A DNA stretch of 25,894 bases. It comes from a virus. Shown here one piece after another: positions 12,453 to 21,246 of the stretch. The position numbers and the translations under genes were made by a program. The stretch covers positions 1 through 25,894 of the IMG/VR virus record IMGVR_UViG_3300031963_000835. One strand, 5' to 3'. The notes beneath the pieces were generated by a model. The model saw only the letters and a list, made by a program, of their open reading frames with translations, made no database searches and was not told where the DNA came from. Every line of letters starts with the position of its first letter. Within the stretch, counting starts at the first letter, position 1.

Positions 12453-13358
12453 TTAGGCTTCGTCGCAGGCGATCTCGACGACCTTCTTCTCTTCCATGCG
12501 AACAGCAGCGAGGCTGGCCACGGAACGGATTTGAAGGGAGTGCGAGAGGTCCGTGCGGATGTCCATGTGGGTCTTGAGTCCGCGCTCGGCGAGGATGACT
12601 CCGGACTTCACATAGGCGTAAACGCTGCGGACCGTGCTGGTCTTCGGAAGCAGTTGGGTGCGGCGGAATTTGAAACCCATGAAGGTGTTCAGATTGCCGT
12701 CCACCAAGGCGCGAACCGTGTTGTAGTCGGCGCTGGTGGCTTCCGTGGTGCGGAGCAGGTCTTGAAGCTGCTTGGCCGAAACAACCAAGATGCGCTCCTC
12801 CTCCTCATCGACATCGTTGCTGTCGAAGAGGAACTTCGCAGCGCGGAGCTTGCCGATGGTGAGGCCCGAGTTCGCGGCGGTGCCGGATTCCACATAGTTG
12901 ACTGCGACCTTCTGGCCAGCAGGCAATGCGGTTGCGGTTGTGCCGGTCGTGCCGGTAAAGGCTGTCCCGCCAAGAGCGCCGATGATGATCGTGTCGCAGG
13001 TGCGGCCATAGGCGGCAGCGTGCGATTGGATGATCGGGCTGGTGGGAAGGACGACTTCGCCGAGGAGTTGCTCGTCCCATTCGTCTACGAGTTTCGCGCA
13101 GTCGTATTGCTGCGGGCGAATCCAGCGTTTAGCCATCGCTTGATCGCTGATGCGGGTGTCGCGTGAGCGATCCGTGATCTGCGTCATCGAGGTCGTGTCG
13201 ATTTGATTGTAGGACTTCTCTTTTCCTTCGATGGAATCGATGGTCACATATTCTTTCAGCTTGCTGTTCTTTTGTTGAACGAGGTGTTTCCAGTTCGCGT
13301 CGAACTGTGTGGTGTAGTGGTTGGGGACATTCGTCAGAACGCCATTGAGGTCTGCCAT
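12453..13358 (-). CDS. Major capsid protein
   Basis: A 301-residue protein that would form the icosahedral shell. It begins MADLNGVLTNVPNHYTTQFD and contains KEYVTIDSIEGKEKSYNQID, RWIRPQQYDCAKLVDEWDEQ, VVSAKQLQDLLRTTEATSAD and HSLQIRSVASLAAVRMEEKK. These are typical of the capsid proteins of podoviruses with an HK97-like fold. The order scaffold, (tRNA), capsid, adaptor confirms the role. It has the best ribosome binding site in the window, AAGGAG with a 6-base A spacer before ATG 13358. It is also preceded by a 15-bp repeat copy and a long structured leader, which fits the need for very high expression. No maturation protease gene is seen. Confidence 0.9.
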   Translation of the reverse strand: MADLNGVLTNVPNHYTTQFDANWKHLVQQKNSKLKEYVTIDSIEGKEKSYNQIDTTSMTQITDRSRDTRISDQAMAKRWIRPQQYDCAKLVDEWDEQLLGEVVLPTSPIIQSHAAAYGRTCDTIIIGALGGTAFTGTTGTTATALPAGQKVAVNYVESGTAANSGLTIGKLRAAKFLFDSNDVDEEEERILVVSAKQLQDLLRTTEATSADYNTVRALVDGNLNTFMGFKFRRTQLLPKTSTVRSVYAYVKSGVILAERGLKTHMDIRTDLSHSLQIRSVASLAAVRMEEKKVVEIACDEA

Positions 13359-13383
13359 TTTTTTCTCCTTGTGTTGAGTTGGT

Positions 13384-13398
13384 TGGTATCAGTCGAAA
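13384..13398 (-). repeat. 15-bp repeat copy 1 (before capsid gene)
   Basis: The plus strand reads TGGTATCAGTCGAAA, differing from the consensus at one base. It lies 25 bases upstream of the capsid ATG. With the preceding ATCAGT this copy can form a 6-bp hairpin closed by a TTCG loop, a feature not shared by most other copies. Confidence 0.85.
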
Positions 13399-13521
13399 CT
13401 GATGGTTCGTTGCTCCCTTCGCTTCCGAGTGTCCCAATCGGGGTCTTCGACGGCGGGTATTAGGGAGCAGGCTCAACAAAGGAGGTGTCTGCTCTGACGG
13501 TGTGAGTTCTACACCATCACA

Positions 13522-13536
13522 TGGTATCAGTCAAAA
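13522..13536 (-). repeat. 15-bp repeat copy 2 (just after tRNA)
   Basis: Perfect TGGTATCAGTCAAAA on the plus strand. It begins two bases beyond the mature 3' end of the tRNA on the transcript side and is followed at once by ATG TGA, a start codon directly followed by a stop. Confidence 0.85.
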
Positions 13537-13538
13537 AT

Positions 13539-13609
13539 TAGCGGGGCCGAGAATCGAACTCGGGATTCCAGATTATGAAACTGGTGTGATGCCTCTTCAC
13601 TACCCCGCA
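13539..13609 (-). tRNA. tRNA-Met (anticodon CAU)
   Basis: On the minus strand the cloverleaf reads as follows: acceptor GCGGGG paired with CCCCGC; T8 A9; D-stem GTGA/TCAC with loop AGAGGCA; anticodon stem CCAG/CTGG with a T-T pair at the base; loop TTCATAA giving anticodon CAT; a 4-base variable loop; and T-arm CCGAG-TTCGATT-CTCGG. The first acceptor pair would be a T-T mismatch, and CCA is not encoded. The anticodon stem lacks the three G-C pairs of an initiator, so elongator Met, or Ile2 after lysidine modification, is more likely. It sits 5 bases after the scaffold stop, inside the head gene cluster, and would be cut from the head mRNA. Confidence 0.85.
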
Positions 13610-13614
13610 GAAAT

Positions 13615-14496
13615 TCATCCCTGTTTGAGCAAGGAGGTGACGAGCGCGGCGGCTTCGCGGTCGCCTTCCATGTAACGCTTGTGCCAAGCATTCTCCGAGT
13701 TCGACATGATGTCCTTGGCGCGGGCCGCGCCGGTCATAAACTCGGTGCCGCCCATGGAGCGACCGACCTTGTCCTCGCTCATCATTTGCGCCATGCGAAC
13801 GAATCCACGCACAACTTCGGGATCGGAAAATCCATGTGAGTTCGCATCCACGCCCGCGAGCTTCGCGGCCTGCTTGGCGAGTCCGATGTTTTTTCCGAAA
13901 TCATTTCCCCACTCTTTTTGGAGACCCTGCACGGCCTCGGTGCGCTGCTTCTCGTAGGTCGCTTGGATCGCTTCCAATTTGAACATCTCGGTCTTCGCGT
14001 GTTGCGCGACGAGTTCCTTCATGGCCGAGGGCGGGATGCCGTGCTTGTGCGCGATCTCGGCATAAGGCTTCGCCATGTCGTCACTCCATGTCATGCCCTC
14101 GGGCAGCGAGTCCGGAGCGAACTTGTATTCCTCAATCGACTCGGGAACGCCCATGGCACGGCGGAATGCGGCTACCTCCTCGGGTGAGGATTTCTCGTTG
14201 GGGACGCCGAGCTTTTTCCCGATGAGCGCATTCGCGTTCGCGAGCGCCTTCGCCATGTCGGGAACGCTTTTGTATTTCGAGAGCGTGTCCTTGTAGTCCT
14301 TCGCATCGTCGGGCAGGGCATCGAGCCACTTGTCTCCGAAGGTGCCGTCTGGATTCACCCAGCCGGTCGAGGGAGTTGAGGGTTGCGTGGTTTCCGCAGC
14401 GGGCTGCTGCGCCTGTGCCTCCGGAGAGGCGCTTGTGTTATCGGCTGCGGCGAGAAGTGATTCCTCGCCGGAGGTGTCGATTGTGGTGTCTTCCAT
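13615..14496 (-). CDS. Capsid scaffolding/assembly protein
   Basis: A 293-residue acidic protein. Residues 1-50 are disordered and rich in Ala, Gln, Thr and Ser. WVNPDGTFGDKWLDALPDDA, YKSVPDMAKALANANALIGK and GVPESIEEYKFAPDSLPEGM are hallmarks of podoviral scaffold proteins, which direct procapsid assembly and then leave. The middle is helical (KLEAIQATYEKQRTEAVQGL). Position between portal-side genes and the capsid gene agrees. The start is ATG 14496, only four bases from a 15-bp repeat copy; there is no Shine-Dalgarno, the leader reading TACCATTTATG. Confidence 0.88.
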   Translation of the reverse strand: MEDTTIDTSGEESLLAAADNTSASPEAQAQQPAAETTQPSTPSTGWVNPDGTFGDKWLDALPDDAKDYKDTLSKYKSVPDMAKALANANALIGKKLGVPNEKSSPEEVAAFRRAMGVPESIEEYKFAPDSLPEGMTWSDDMAKPYAEIAHKHGIPPSAMKELVAQHAKTEMFKLEAIQATYEKQRTEAVQGLQKEWGNDFGKNIGLAKQAAKLAGVDANSHGFSDPEVVRGFVRMAQMMSEDKVGRSMGGTEFMTGAARAKDIMSNSENAWHKRYMEGDREAAALVTSLLKQG

Positions 14497-14499
14497 AAA

Positions 14500-14514
14500 T
14501 GGTATCAGTCAAAA
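14500..14514 (-). repeat. 15-bp repeat copy 3 (before scaffold gene)
   Basis: Perfect TGGTATCAGTCAAAA on the plus strand. On the transcript it ends three bases before the scaffold ATG, filling the place of a ribosome binding site. It lies between the 58-residue gene and the scaffold gene. Confidence 0.88.
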
Positions 14515-16658: not shown

Positions 16659-16659
16659 T

Positions 16660-16674
16660 TGGTATCAGTCAAAA
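16660..16674 (-). repeat. 15-bp repeat copy 4 (before portal gene)
   Basis: Perfect TGGTATCAGTCAAAA on the plus strand. It fills the short gap between the Pro-rich protein's stop and the portal ATG, reading TGATACCAAATG on the transcript. Together with the preceding TCAGT it can form a 5-bp hairpin (TCAGT-TTTG-ACTGA). Confidence 0.88.
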
Positions 16675-16961: not shown

Positions 16962-17308
16962 CGCGTTTGGAGTTTCGAGGTTTCGTAAATCCGGAGCGGG
17001 CGGTCTCGCCGACTCCATGCGATGAAGGGAAGTGTATACGGGGCGAAGTTGCAAGGGTTATTTTGACTGATACCACTATATATAGTGATCAGCCAGCAGT
17101 TCTGACACAACCTGTGGTATGTGTGGGCGGCATCGCGCCAGCGTTCCTCGGGGTCGTGAATATCCACCGGGCGGGCCAGAAGGAAGAAGTCCTCGGTGTT
17201 CACGACCACCCCATTCCATGCTGTCAATTCTACCTCCTCGGAGAAGGATCGCGGCTGCGGGTAGCGCCGGTAGAGATCGAGGATTTGGAGTTCCAGTTCG
17301 CGATTCAC
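16913..17308 (-). CDS. Hypothetical protein following terminase
   Basis: A 131-residue protein starting at GTG 17308, whose GTGA overlaps the TerL stop. It contains NGVVVNTEDFFLLARPVD and, near the C-terminus, NFAPYTLPFIAWSRRDRPLR. These fit small proteins of unknown function often encoded between terminase and portal in podoviruses (recollection, not searched). Residues 79-83 (GISQN) are encoded by an inverted copy of the 15-bp repeat. The last 20 residues are Thr/Lys/Ser-rich and overlap the next gene, so the true C-terminus may be degraded. Alternative longer frames upstream are inside TerL. Confidence 0.65.
   Translation of the reverse strand: MNRELELQILDLYRRYPQPRSFSEEVELTAWNGVVVNTEDFFLLARPVDIHDPEERWRDAAHTYHRLCQNCWLITIYSGISQNNPCNFAPYTLPFIAWSRRDRPLRIYETSKLQTRCDLLTTKKTPSSLPA
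17061..17075 (+). repeat. 15-bp repeat copy 5 (inverted, inside coding sequence)
   Basis: The plus strand reads TTTTGACTGATACCA, the opposite orientation to the six other copies. It lies inside the gene after TerL, where it encodes G-I-S-Q-N. Directly beside it is a perfect 14-bp palindrome CACTATATATAGTG (17074-17087). The sequence is AT-rich compared with the surrounding gene. Confidence 0.85.
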
Positions 17309-18990: not shown

Positions 18991-19005
18991 TGGTATCAGT
19001 CAAAA
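18991..19005 (-). repeat. 15-bp repeat copy 6 (before TerS)
   Basis: Perfect TGGTATCAGTCAAAA on the plus strand. It lies between the RusA-like coding region and TerS, at the head of the packaging gene block. The adjoining GTCAAGATCAATTTTGAC can form a 5-bp stem with an 8-base loop. Confidence 0.88.
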
Positions 19006-19036: not shown

Positions 19037-19414
19037 TCATACTCCCCCTGTGGTTGTTATTTCGATGTGGGTCATTTCTTCGGCCTTCGTTTTGACTTTG
19101 ACTTGCCGGAAGAGAATTTCGATGGTTTCGGGGTCGTCGTCTTCGATGAGCTTGGCATAGCGCAACTGGTCAATAAGAGGCTTGCAACCGCCTGCGAAAT
19201 TGTCGGCGTCGAGGAGCGAGCATGAGCGTCTCGTAATGATGAGAGTAGTGCGAGCTTGGCGCGGACTTTCTCTTTTTGCAGGAGCGACCAATGCTGGCCG
19301 AGGAGCCGGTTGAGGCTGGGGGTGAGGTAGCCGCGCAGTTGAAGAGTGACTGAAGCTGCCGTCGGGATTTTGCCGGTAGCCGAGTTTTCGGAGTTGTTCA
19401 TGCGTCCAGTTCAT
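19037..19414 (-). CDS. RusA-like resolvase, frame with C-terminal catalytic half
   Basis: A 125-residue frame from ATG 19414, ATGA-coupled to queD. Residues about 62-115 look like the catalytic half of a RusA-family Holliday junction resolvase: TLIITRRSCSLLDADNFAGG, CKPLIDQLRYAKLIEDDD, TIEILFRQVKVKTK. The D-x-D-N and D-D-D acidic clusters and the Lys match the metal-binding residues of the family. The N-terminal part (MNWTHEQLRKLGYRQNPDGS) is plausible, but residues 30-58 are a Pro/Arg-rich stretch. That stretch overlaps a second frame carrying the usual RusA N-terminal half (next entry). Either two overlapping genes or one frameshifted gene is present. Confidence 0.7.
   Translation of the reverse strand: MNWTHEQLRKLGYRQNPDGSFSHSSTARLPHPQPQPAPRPALVAPAKRESPRQARTTLIITRRSCSLLDADNFAGGCKPLIDQLRYAKLIEDDDPETIEILFRQVKVKTKAEEMTHIEITTTGGV
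19072..19401 (-). CDS. Overlapping frame with RusA-like N-terminal half
   Basis: A 109-codon frame from ATG 19401, shifted by one base relative to the entry above. It contains SVTLQLRGYLTPSLNRLLGQ and HWSLLQKEKVRAKLALLSSL. That is the first strand, the P-S-L-N-R-L loop with H-W, and the helix that open many RusA-like proteins. Its last 45 residues are low-complexity Ser/Lys and clearly the shadow of the other frame. A -1 shift near the A5 run at 19276-19280 would join this half to the catalytic half. It may be a split gene, a frameshift mutation, or a true overlapping gene. I cannot decide from sequence alone. Confidence 0.45.
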   Translation of the reverse strand: MNNSENSATGKIPTAASVTLQLRGYLTPSLNRLLGQHWSLLQKEKVRAKLALLSSLRDAHARSSTPTISQAVASLLLTSCAMPSSSKTTTPKPSKFSSGKSKSKRRPKK

Positions 19415-19794
19415 TCAATTTCAAATAAAACAGATGTTGTTGGTGTTTCGTATAATTCCACGGCACAAATACTTGGTAGTTTCCCTGTAAGTTCATTTGC
19501 AAACCACCACACAAGATTTTCTGCTGTTGTTTCAAAATCGAACTGATCATTGAGAAACGAATGGTCTAGTTTCTGCACTATCGGACGCACGGCGGCGGCA
19601 ATGTCGGCGTAATCCACCACCCAATCTCGAGCGGGGTTGAGCTTGCCTTGGCAATGGACGCGAAGCTTGTAGCTATGCCCGTGAAGTCTTCCGCATTGAT
19701 GCCCCACGGGAACCTTGGTAAGTTGATGTGCCGCCTCGAAAGAAAAGTCTTTCCACAGGCGAAAAGTTGCGTTGAGTCTGTCTTGTTTATTCAT
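19411..19794 (-). CDS. queD: QueD-like 6-carboxytetrahydropterin synthase
   Basis: A 127-residue member of the 6-pyruvoyl-tetrahydropterin synthase/QueD family, which turns dihydroneopterin triphosphate into 6-carboxy-tetrahydropterin, the second step to the 7-deazaguanine base preQ0. The zinc ligands H23, H38 and H40 (FEAAHQL, GRLHGHSY), catalytic C34, the D77-H78 pair (LDHSFLND) and E113 (VELYET) are all present, so the enzyme looks active. Length is normal. It follows the DpdA-like gene, with which it was probably once coupled by ATGA. In phages this pair points to 7-deazaguanine DNA modification. FolE, QueE and QueC are not in the window. Its 3' half is notably AT-rich (about 40% GC on the two lines counted). 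Confidence 0.9.
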   Translation of the reverse strand: MNKQDRLNATFRLWKDFSFEAAHQLTKVPVGHQCGRLHGHSYKLRVHCQGKLNPARDWVVDYADIAAAVRPIVQKLDHSFLNDQFDFETTAENLVWWFANELTGKLPSICAVELYETPTTSVLFEIE

Positions 19795-19859: not shown

Positions 19860-20444
19860 TTACAAACGGTCTTCTCCTCCGCGCATCCAGCCTGTGCCAT
19901 CGCAGGATTCTACTCCCGCTTCATGGCACATCCAAAGGAGTCGCTCGGAGTTCACCCGTCCCACATGGACGCGGGGAAAGTTATTTGCCCAAGTGTGTAG
20001 GTGCTTCCATTTCCACTCGGTTGTGCCTCCTACAAAAATTACATCTGCTTCGTCCGGCACATCGTTTGGGGTCATTCCGTCTTGGACGGCAAACGCAAAG
20101 CATACCCCGTGCAGGCGATCTCGTAGTTGCGGCATCCATTCATGCCAGCGGATGATCGTTGACTCCCTGTCTGCTACCACATCGGGAACCACCACCCAGC
20201 GCGGCTTGTGTGCAGATTTTGATTTCTCAATCAACTTAAGAAAAGCCTCTGCATCCCACTCGCGATCATTTGACCACGCCCCATACGCTCCATTGTCTAA
20301 AGCGTATGGCATCCAAGTTGGAGGCTGCCGCCAACCATCTGGAGATAGCAGCCAGCCGATTCGGTTTTGAAATTTTCCGGCAAGGTATCCGATTTGGATG
20401 CCCGAGTTATTGGAAGGCATTACAATCATACCTTGCCAGTTCAT
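19860..20444 (-). CDS. dpdA: DpdA-like (TGT-superfamily) DNA base-exchange enzyme, C-terminus cut by a stop
   Basis: A 194-residue protein from ATG 20444, ATGA-coupled and preceded by AAAGGA. Its motif order follows tRNA-guanine transglycosylase: LDNGAYGAW (D50, like DSGGF), VVVPDVVAD (P87-D88), FAVQDGMTP (like VQGG), VIFVGGTTEW (G139-G140), then HVGRVNSERL and ESCDGTGW. D182 in the last motif is the candidate nucleophile. The TGT zinc-binding C-x-C-x-x-C end is absent, as in short phage DpdA proteins. DpdA enzymes swap guanine in DNA for a 7-deazaguanine such as preQ0. The frame stays open beyond TAA 19860 for 22 codons, ending in ATGA with queD, so the gene seems truncated by a nonsense change. 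DpdA subtype is not resolved. Confidence 0.75.
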   Translation of the reverse strand: MNWQGMIVMPSNNSGIQIGYLAGKFQNRIGWLLSPDGWRQPPTWMPYALDNGAYGAWSNDREWDAEAFLKLIEKSKSAHKPRWVVVPDVVADRESTIIRWHEWMPQLRDRLHGVCFAFAVQDGMTPNDVPDEADVIFVGGTTEWKWKHLHTWANNFPRVHVGRVNSERLLWMCHEAGVESCDGTGWMRGGEDRL

Positions 20445-20737
20445 CTCTTTTTCCTTTCGCGAAGCATCTTGATGATTTGCGGATACTTCCCCGGGTGAAA
20501 TGCCGCATCTTTGATTTTGTCCGCAGGGAGCCGTGGAAAGATGGAACAGATTTGCTGATACGACCGGCTTTTCAAAAAATGCCGAGCCGTCCGCCGTGCT
20601 TCCACGATGATCGCTTGTTGGTGCTTCGACTTGTAGGTGTGCTTGTTCCAGCAATCCTCGACCGCCTGCAAAATGATATTGCAGGCTAAGTCTCGGACTC
20701 CTTCCAAGTGGTAGTCTTTAGAAGGAGATTTCGTCAT
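20441..20737 (-). CDS. Hypothetical phage protein, helical
   Basis: A 98-residue protein. ATG 20737 (MTKSPSKDYHLEGVRDLACN) overlaps the end of the SSB-like gene by 20 bases and is preceded by no clear Shine-Dalgarno. The much longer upstream frame is a shadow of that gene. The protein is basic and mostly helical (IILQAVEDCWNK, AIIVEARRTARHFLKSRSYQ) and ends KMLRERKKR. It vaguely resembles small phage proteins with a helix and an S-x-x-F/Y-x-x-I motif found near replication genes. I do not recognise it further. It is coupled to the DpdA-like gene by ATGA, so the two are co-translated. Confidence 0.7.
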   Translation of the reverse strand: MTKSPSKDYHLEGVRDLACNIILQAVEDCWNKHTYKSKHQQAIIVEARRTARHFLKSRSYQQICSIFPRLPADKIKDAAFHPGKYPQIIKMLRERKKR

Positions 20738-21231: not shown

Positions 21232-21246
21232 TGGTATCAGTCAAAA
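21232..21246 (-). repeat. 15-bp repeat copy 7 (before SSB-like gene)
   Basis: Perfect TGGTATCAGTCAAAA on the plus strand. On the transcript its TTTTGA contains the TGA stop codon of the 61-residue gene, so the repeat overlaps a stop codon, as stoperators of L5-like phages often do. This is the copy at the highest coordinate. Confidence 0.88.

Follow-up and report, generated by a model that had tools for sequence, protein, structure and literature searches.

The message for the major capsid protein of this virus carries, just ahead of the coding region, a pair of mirrored hairpins that we interpret as a candidate operator bound by the capsid-assembly protein encoded upstream. We put the probability of this reading at about 0.68. 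The structure of the element, its conservation, the concerted change of its two hairpins and its co-variation with the assembly protein are computational observations on the window (the whole 25,894-nucleotide stretch of a virus record that was analyzed) and its relatives.

Structure and conservation of the capsid leader

The head and tail genes of the window lie on the minus strand, in the order terminase, portal, capsid-assembly protein, tRNA-Met, leader, capsid and tail genes (Table 1). The capsid and assembly proteins are akin to Pelagibacter phage proteins annotated as ‘major capsid protein’ and ‘capsid assembly protein’. The sole relative from a named genome is a contig of a Verrucomicrobia MAG, which is weak evidence of host. 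The tRNA-Met gene is carried by the window clade and is missing from the L257-L279 families. In L257-L273 and L275-L279, about 1.5 kb of extra genes separate the assembly gene from the capsid gene.

Table 1. Positions of the leader features and neighboring genes in the window.
Feature	Position	Strand	Sequence or remark
Major capsid protein gene	12453-13358	-	PF19821, PHROG 3437
Capsid ribosome-binding region	13365-13378	-	CUCAACACAAGGAG; includes the Shine-Dalgarno sequence 13370-13365
Arm around hairpin A	13412-13468	-	closed by GCUCCCU (13468-13462)/AGGGAGC (13418-13412)
Hairpin A core, mirrored module	13427-13445	-	GA.C.CCC-GAUU-GGG.ACAC.UC
Hairpin B (anti-Shine-Dalgarno hairpin of the original prediction)	13465-13494	-	GAGCAG.ACAC.CUC-CUUUGUU-GAG.C.CUGCUC
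Anti-Shine-Dalgarno stretch	13472-13484	-	CUCCUUUGUUGAG; able to pair with the capsid ribosome-binding region
tRNA-Met(CAU) gene	13539-13609	-	between assembly and capsid genes
Capsid-assembly (scaffold-position) protein gene	13615-14496	-	PHROG 3742; proposed RNA-binding partner
Assembly-protein codons 70-75 (DTLSKY)	14272-14289	-	patch switching with the RNA allele

The original prediction described an anti-Shine-Dalgarno (anti-SD) sequence in a hairpin loop of this leader, and each of its sequence features was recovered at its position. In the minus-strand transcript, a stem of GAGCAG (13494-13489) and CUGCUC (13470-13465) encloses 18 bases, and CACCUCCUUU, identical to the 3' end of 16S rRNA, sits in this loop at 13487-13478. 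It is the only exact copy in the window, where 0.06 are expected by chance, and it is present in 6 of 100 shuffles. GCUCCCU is complementary to AGGGAGC, and the AAGGAG of the SD precedes the capsid start codon (ATG, 13358). Compared with shuffled sequence, the 199-nt leader has a more stable fold (z = -3.47).

Several details were revised. The loop has 18 bases but is not simply open: ACAC (13488-13485) faces C13471, so that the outer stem GAGCAG/CUGCUC is followed by an inner stem CUC/GAG and a loop CUUUGUU. The two stems that had been thought mutually exclusive, GCUCCCU/AGGGAGC and GAGCAG/CUGCUC, overlap and partly compete, but can coexist once shortened to UCCCU/AGGGA (5 bp) and GCAG/CUGC (4 bp). 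The 180-base length is right for the stretch after the tRNA, while the full intergenic gap is 256 nt and includes the tRNA-Met gene, which had been overlooked.

The same module recurs across families. It consists of a stem, a single base X opposite the four bases N1-Y-A-M, a second stem and a variable loop; CACCUCCUUU is made up of the bulge, inner stem and loop bases of hairpin B. In our reading, X opposite N1-Y-A-M may represent an X-N1 wobble or pair followed by a three-base bulge. The module appears twice per leader: in hairpin B the four bases belong to the 5' strand, in the hairpin A that follows to the 3' strand. With a descriptor requiring at least six pairs, it is 10.2-fold enriched in capsid leaders compared with elsewhere on the same loci, against 0-0.9 for nine control descriptors; as the descriptor came from these same leaders, the enrichment lends support without being independent evidence. 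A search of both strands of the window gave a single B-then-A pair whose X and M agree, and no second such pair elsewhere, including ahead of the assembly gene. Hairpin B is also present by descriptor in the cultured Pelagibacter phages HTVC010P and HTVC024P, whose hairpin A was recognized by eye only, in their leader sequences. A search with the covariance models of Rfam release 15, at the gathering threshold and at a relaxed E-value of 0.5, covered the window and the leaders of 13 relatives; only tRNA passed, and a single sub-threshold match in L281 falls outside the leader.

The element is strongly conserved in position and structure. It lies just ahead of the capsid ATG in all 80 closest capsid relatives, and further contigs found by its sequence have it at the same place wherever the capsid start is readable. 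Relatives at 53-57% capsid identity keep it despite many base changes, and those near 40-44% retain a modified form; covariation of the stems reaches to relatives whose capsids are about 40% identical. In the wider family, the hairpin shape is constant while the inner stem is swapped to CC/GG or UUC/GAA. Two-sided changes affect 8 of 17 pairs in the window-type families (18 sequences) and 12 of 21 pairs, in 38 cells, in the marine family (17 sequences); none of 500 shuffles reaches either value. When partners are slid by 1-3 columns, the signal collapses. By eye, the stem enclosing hairpin A also shows compensated changes, namely GCUUUCC/GGGAAGC in L245 and UGUCC/GGACA in L257. Compensatory base changes thus accompany a constant position before one gene, as expected of a structured cis-acting RNA. 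This strongly supports the original proposal of a conserved, covarying RNA ahead of the capsid gene, for which lack of covariation and conservation among relatives had been named as the refuting outcome.

Other features of these genomes were recorded alongside. Marine leaders (L301, L303, L306-L326, L359) hold a strongly covarying multi-hairpin RNA about 150 to 70 nt before the capsid gene, in which the module occurs in both flipped and forward orientation alongside two more hairpins; this is a separate RNA family that merits its own description. A QueD-like 6-pyruvoyl tetrahydropterin synthase gene at 19411-19794 (minus strand) has a neighbor at 19860-20654 (minus strand) that is weakly like queuine tRNA-ribosyltransferase, which suggests phage 7-deazaguanine metabolism.

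A repeated motif, TTTTGACTGATACC, is found near start codons. It occurs on the minus strand at 13385-13394, 13523-13532, 14501-14510, 16661-16670, 18992-19001 and 21233-21242 and on the plus strand at 17065-17074; with at most one mismatch, there are 8 sites against 0.85 expected. The capsid leader holds two copies, and others precede the start codons of the genes for the terminase small subunit, portal and assembly protein by 4-12 nt. The assembly (14497-14510) and portal (16659-16670) genes begin right after the motif and show no visible SD; if it were a promoter, this would be in keeping with leaderless or atypical starts. In the L257 family, a relative of the motif, TTTTGACTAAACC, is inverted just before the capsid ribosome-binding site, and such reversed copies weaken the case for a simple forward promoter. 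The motif is a candidate promoter, operator or other site.

Concerted change and co-variation with the assembly protein

The two hairpins change together. X and M were read with patterns that allowed hairpins A and B to differ, yet X is identical between them in 71/71 distinct sequences (64 C/C, 7 U/U), as is M (37 C/C, 34 A/A); 7 of 24 marine leaders were off-pattern and are left out of this count. Y is free, with 16 of the 71 discordant between hairpins. In a lone sequence, L325, U faces GUAA in both hairpins, which would be expected if a U-G had taken the place of a similar C-A wobble. The variation between CAC and CAA is in step with the second hairpin and with the assembly protein rather than with complementarity to the SD. 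A single partner recognizing both hairpins is the simplest reading of these joint changes, and hairpins A and B probably both bind it.

The assembly protein is the best candidate for this partner. The window clade has two RNA alleles, A (X = C, M = C) and B (X = U, M = A). Residues 70-75 of the assembly protein read DTL[SA]KY in the 55 proteins that accompany allele A and [NS]S[FIV]KNF in the 12 that accompany allele B, a perfect association; outside this patch, no position of the protein reaches 0.95. In a set extended to those window-clade loci whose upstream protein segment could be read, the match has no exception among 77 distinct A and 11 distinct B sequences. L372, which comes from a collection of bacterial genomes, fits with an A-type leader and DTLAKY, and the sister pair L243/L245 has A-type RNA with ETLAKY and ETLARY. 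On the capsid-gene tree, all seven allele switches coincide with the corresponding change in the protein (p = 0.016, sign test). The determinants of RNA and protein specificity co-vary, as they should in a protein-binding operator of the MS2 or P22 style.

Other nearby proteins were considered as ligands. Among them, full separation of the alleles in a well-filled sample is seen only for the assembly protein. The capsid protein was rejected in the window clade, its best residue reaching an association of 0.76, and the portal and two small genes were likewise rejected, having no residue that tracks the RNA allele. Some tail-protein positions also separate the alleles, but on only four B-allele sequences.

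The assembly protein and all 31 relatives are assigned to PHROG 3742 and resemble PHROG 458 (‘protease’) more weakly. The putative scaffold or assembly role of the protein follows from gene position and the annotation of relatives. No significant Pfam family, solved relative or recognized RNA-binding domain was found for it, and Foldseek returned viral homologs only, with no solved structure. The structural model is helical (mean pLDDT 72, pTM 0.38), with an N-terminal domain of moderate confidence (pLDDT about 70). In this model, residues 70-75 run from the end of helix 63-72 into the turn that leads to helix 78-96.

The same pairing of RNA and protein would also arise if the capsid mRNA, or a piece cut from it, gathered assembly protein and nucleated procapsids with no translational control. 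The co-varying partner is indeed an assembly protein, two tandem sites suit the nucleation of a multimer, and the element is unique to the capsid leader. Its position in a leader and its complementarity to the SD favor gene control instead, and we consider such an assembly cofactor unlikely.

Translational control and alternative explanations

In the predicted fold of the leader, CUCCUUUGUUGAG pairs with CUCAACACAAGGAG around the capsid SD, with a 13-bp match in the window. Pairing of CUCC with the SD is predicted in 73 of 74 window-type leaders (mean probability 0.93), and CUCCU is invariant or nearly so across these families. Shuffling the loop lowers the predicted pairing from 0.83 to 0.61. 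The fold containing hairpin B is 4-18 kcal/mol less stable than the anti-SD:SD fold, the difference in the window being 18 kcal/mol. In a permutation test, loops match their own ribosome-binding sites only marginally better than others (p 0.04-0.05, uncorrected for relatedness), which makes the anti-SD layer the weaker part of the case. Sequestration of the SD is unsupported for the group as a whole; among marine and Pelagibacter phages, the SD is predicted to pair with varying partners. The anti-SD, which the original prediction had treated as the key feature, is not the core of the element but a plausible extra regulatory layer in the window lineage.

The near-invariant CUCCU, the predicted pairing, its drop on shuffling and the 13-bp match would equally be expected of a protein-free switch in cis, where anti-SD:SD pairing lowers translation and the hairpin presents or hides the anti-SD during transcription. 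Such a switch leaves the concerted changes of X and M and the co-variation with the protein unexplained. Moreover, marine relatives carry the same hairpins without an anti-SD, and the match between loop and ribosome-binding site is only marginal. We judge this mechanism improbable.

Under the operator reading, the assembly protein would recognize both hairpins through its N-terminal helical domain, so that capsid synthesis would be tied to the amount of free assembly protein. We infer the binding itself from co-variation, together with a presumed effect on translation and its direction. In the window lineage, the inner stem of the first hairpin has turned into CUCC(U), an anti-SD. Hairpin B is proposed to fold first during transcription, since it is the form conserved by covariation and is common also to relatives without the anti-SD. 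The unbound leader would then refold, CUCC pairing with the capsid SD and keeping translation low, while binding of the assembly protein would hold both hairpins and free the SD. Since the predicted pairing of CUCC with the SD belongs to the unbound state, protein binding could turn capsid translation on, and activation is weakly favored over repression in the window lineage. Outside this lineage, repression is equally possible. Because the hairpin-B fold is 18 kcal/mol higher, switching would need co-transcriptional kinetics or strong binding.

Adjacent genes recombine together, which counts against the operator reading. The protein patch and the RNA allele might have moved jointly on recombining segments, the true ligand being another protein; the assembly gene adjoins the leader in the window clade and the association scan was confined to 3.6 kb. 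Within this stretch, however, associations of at least 0.95 occur only at 14289-14273 and 13485-13419, and none of the 787 nt separating the two peaks is associated. All seven associated codon positions alter the amino acid. The result was also replicated in a second family (L257/L260 type), where the assembly gene is about 1.7 kb from the leader and the alleles differ in M. Over about 300 aligned residues, only seven separate M = A (5 proteins) from M = C (4 proteins), all of them within residues 69-89, in the N-terminal region of the same assembly protein. Hitch-hiking is a quite unlikely explanation.

Exchange of short cassettes was also observed. Leader alleles A and B have been swapped between clades (13412-13494; L006, L007, L012, L026, L035, L063), and the exchanged pieces are apparently a matched pair, the leader piece being about 80 nt long and that of the assembly gene about 17 nt.

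Two further possibilities are very hard to reconcile with these data. A cis-acting antiterminator acting on RNA polymerase, like HK022 put, would suit two adjacent hairpins with internal loops near a motif resembling a transcription signal; the co-variation with a capsid-assembly protein and the placement directly before one structural gene make it very unlikely. Least credible is a trans-acting small RNA, or ribosome mimic, that titrates SD sequences through the identity of CACCUCCUUU with the 16S rRNA end, because the match is broken by CAACUCC and UUCC variants, many relatives keep the hairpins but not CACCUCCUUU, and the element always lies ahead of the capsid gene where context is readable.

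Significance and relation to known systems

The balance of scaffold and capsid in tailed phages is a long-standing question, and recognition of RNA by a scaffold would be unexpected. An operator at this site would link the synthesis of the shell protein to the building of the shell. A broader and rather doubtful proposal is that, from freshwater to cultured Pelagibacter podophages, the twin hairpin of the capsid message serves as a scaffold receptor, with the shell made, and possibly assembled, there; if true, this would be an RNA-guided step in dsDNA phage assembly. The natural A and B alleles, some six residues and a few bases per hairpin apart, provide a ready-made specificity-swap test. 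The related hairpins in the leaders of HTVC010P and HTVC024P make the idea testable in an infection. In addition, the protein-RNA pair might serve as an orthogonal protein-RNA tether.

Binding of message leaders by phage proteins is a known mode of regulation. A literature search for scaffold or capsid leader RNAs found nothing relevant, and the read-out of a tailed-phage capsid message by a scaffold-type protein at a defined twin-hairpin site appears to be new. A close functional parallel is the scaffolding protein of phage P22, which autoregulates, so that a morphogenesis gene is controlled post-transcriptionally and supply is matched to assembly. In the scheme proposed here, a scaffold-type protein of a tailed phage would likewise govern a morphogenesis gene. 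The P22 scaffold acts on the message that encodes it, where we know of no defined RNA site; the present candidate site, in an unrelated phage group, is a structured pair of hairpins ahead of the capsid gene. As in the coat-protein operator of RNA phages such as MS2, a virion-assembly protein appears to recognize a short bulged hairpin in a message of its own virus, but this is a dsDNA phage with two mirrored hairpins rather than one, and the partner is an assembly protein rather than coat. T4 gp32 and other translational repressors of T4 likewise bind structured mRNA leaders, as we infer for the assembly protein; those are replication proteins that regulate their own messages through other RNA structures. 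Finally, HK022 put also consists of two adjacent hairpins in cis, which act on host RNA polymerase and need no phage protein, whereas here a phage protein co-varies with the RNA.
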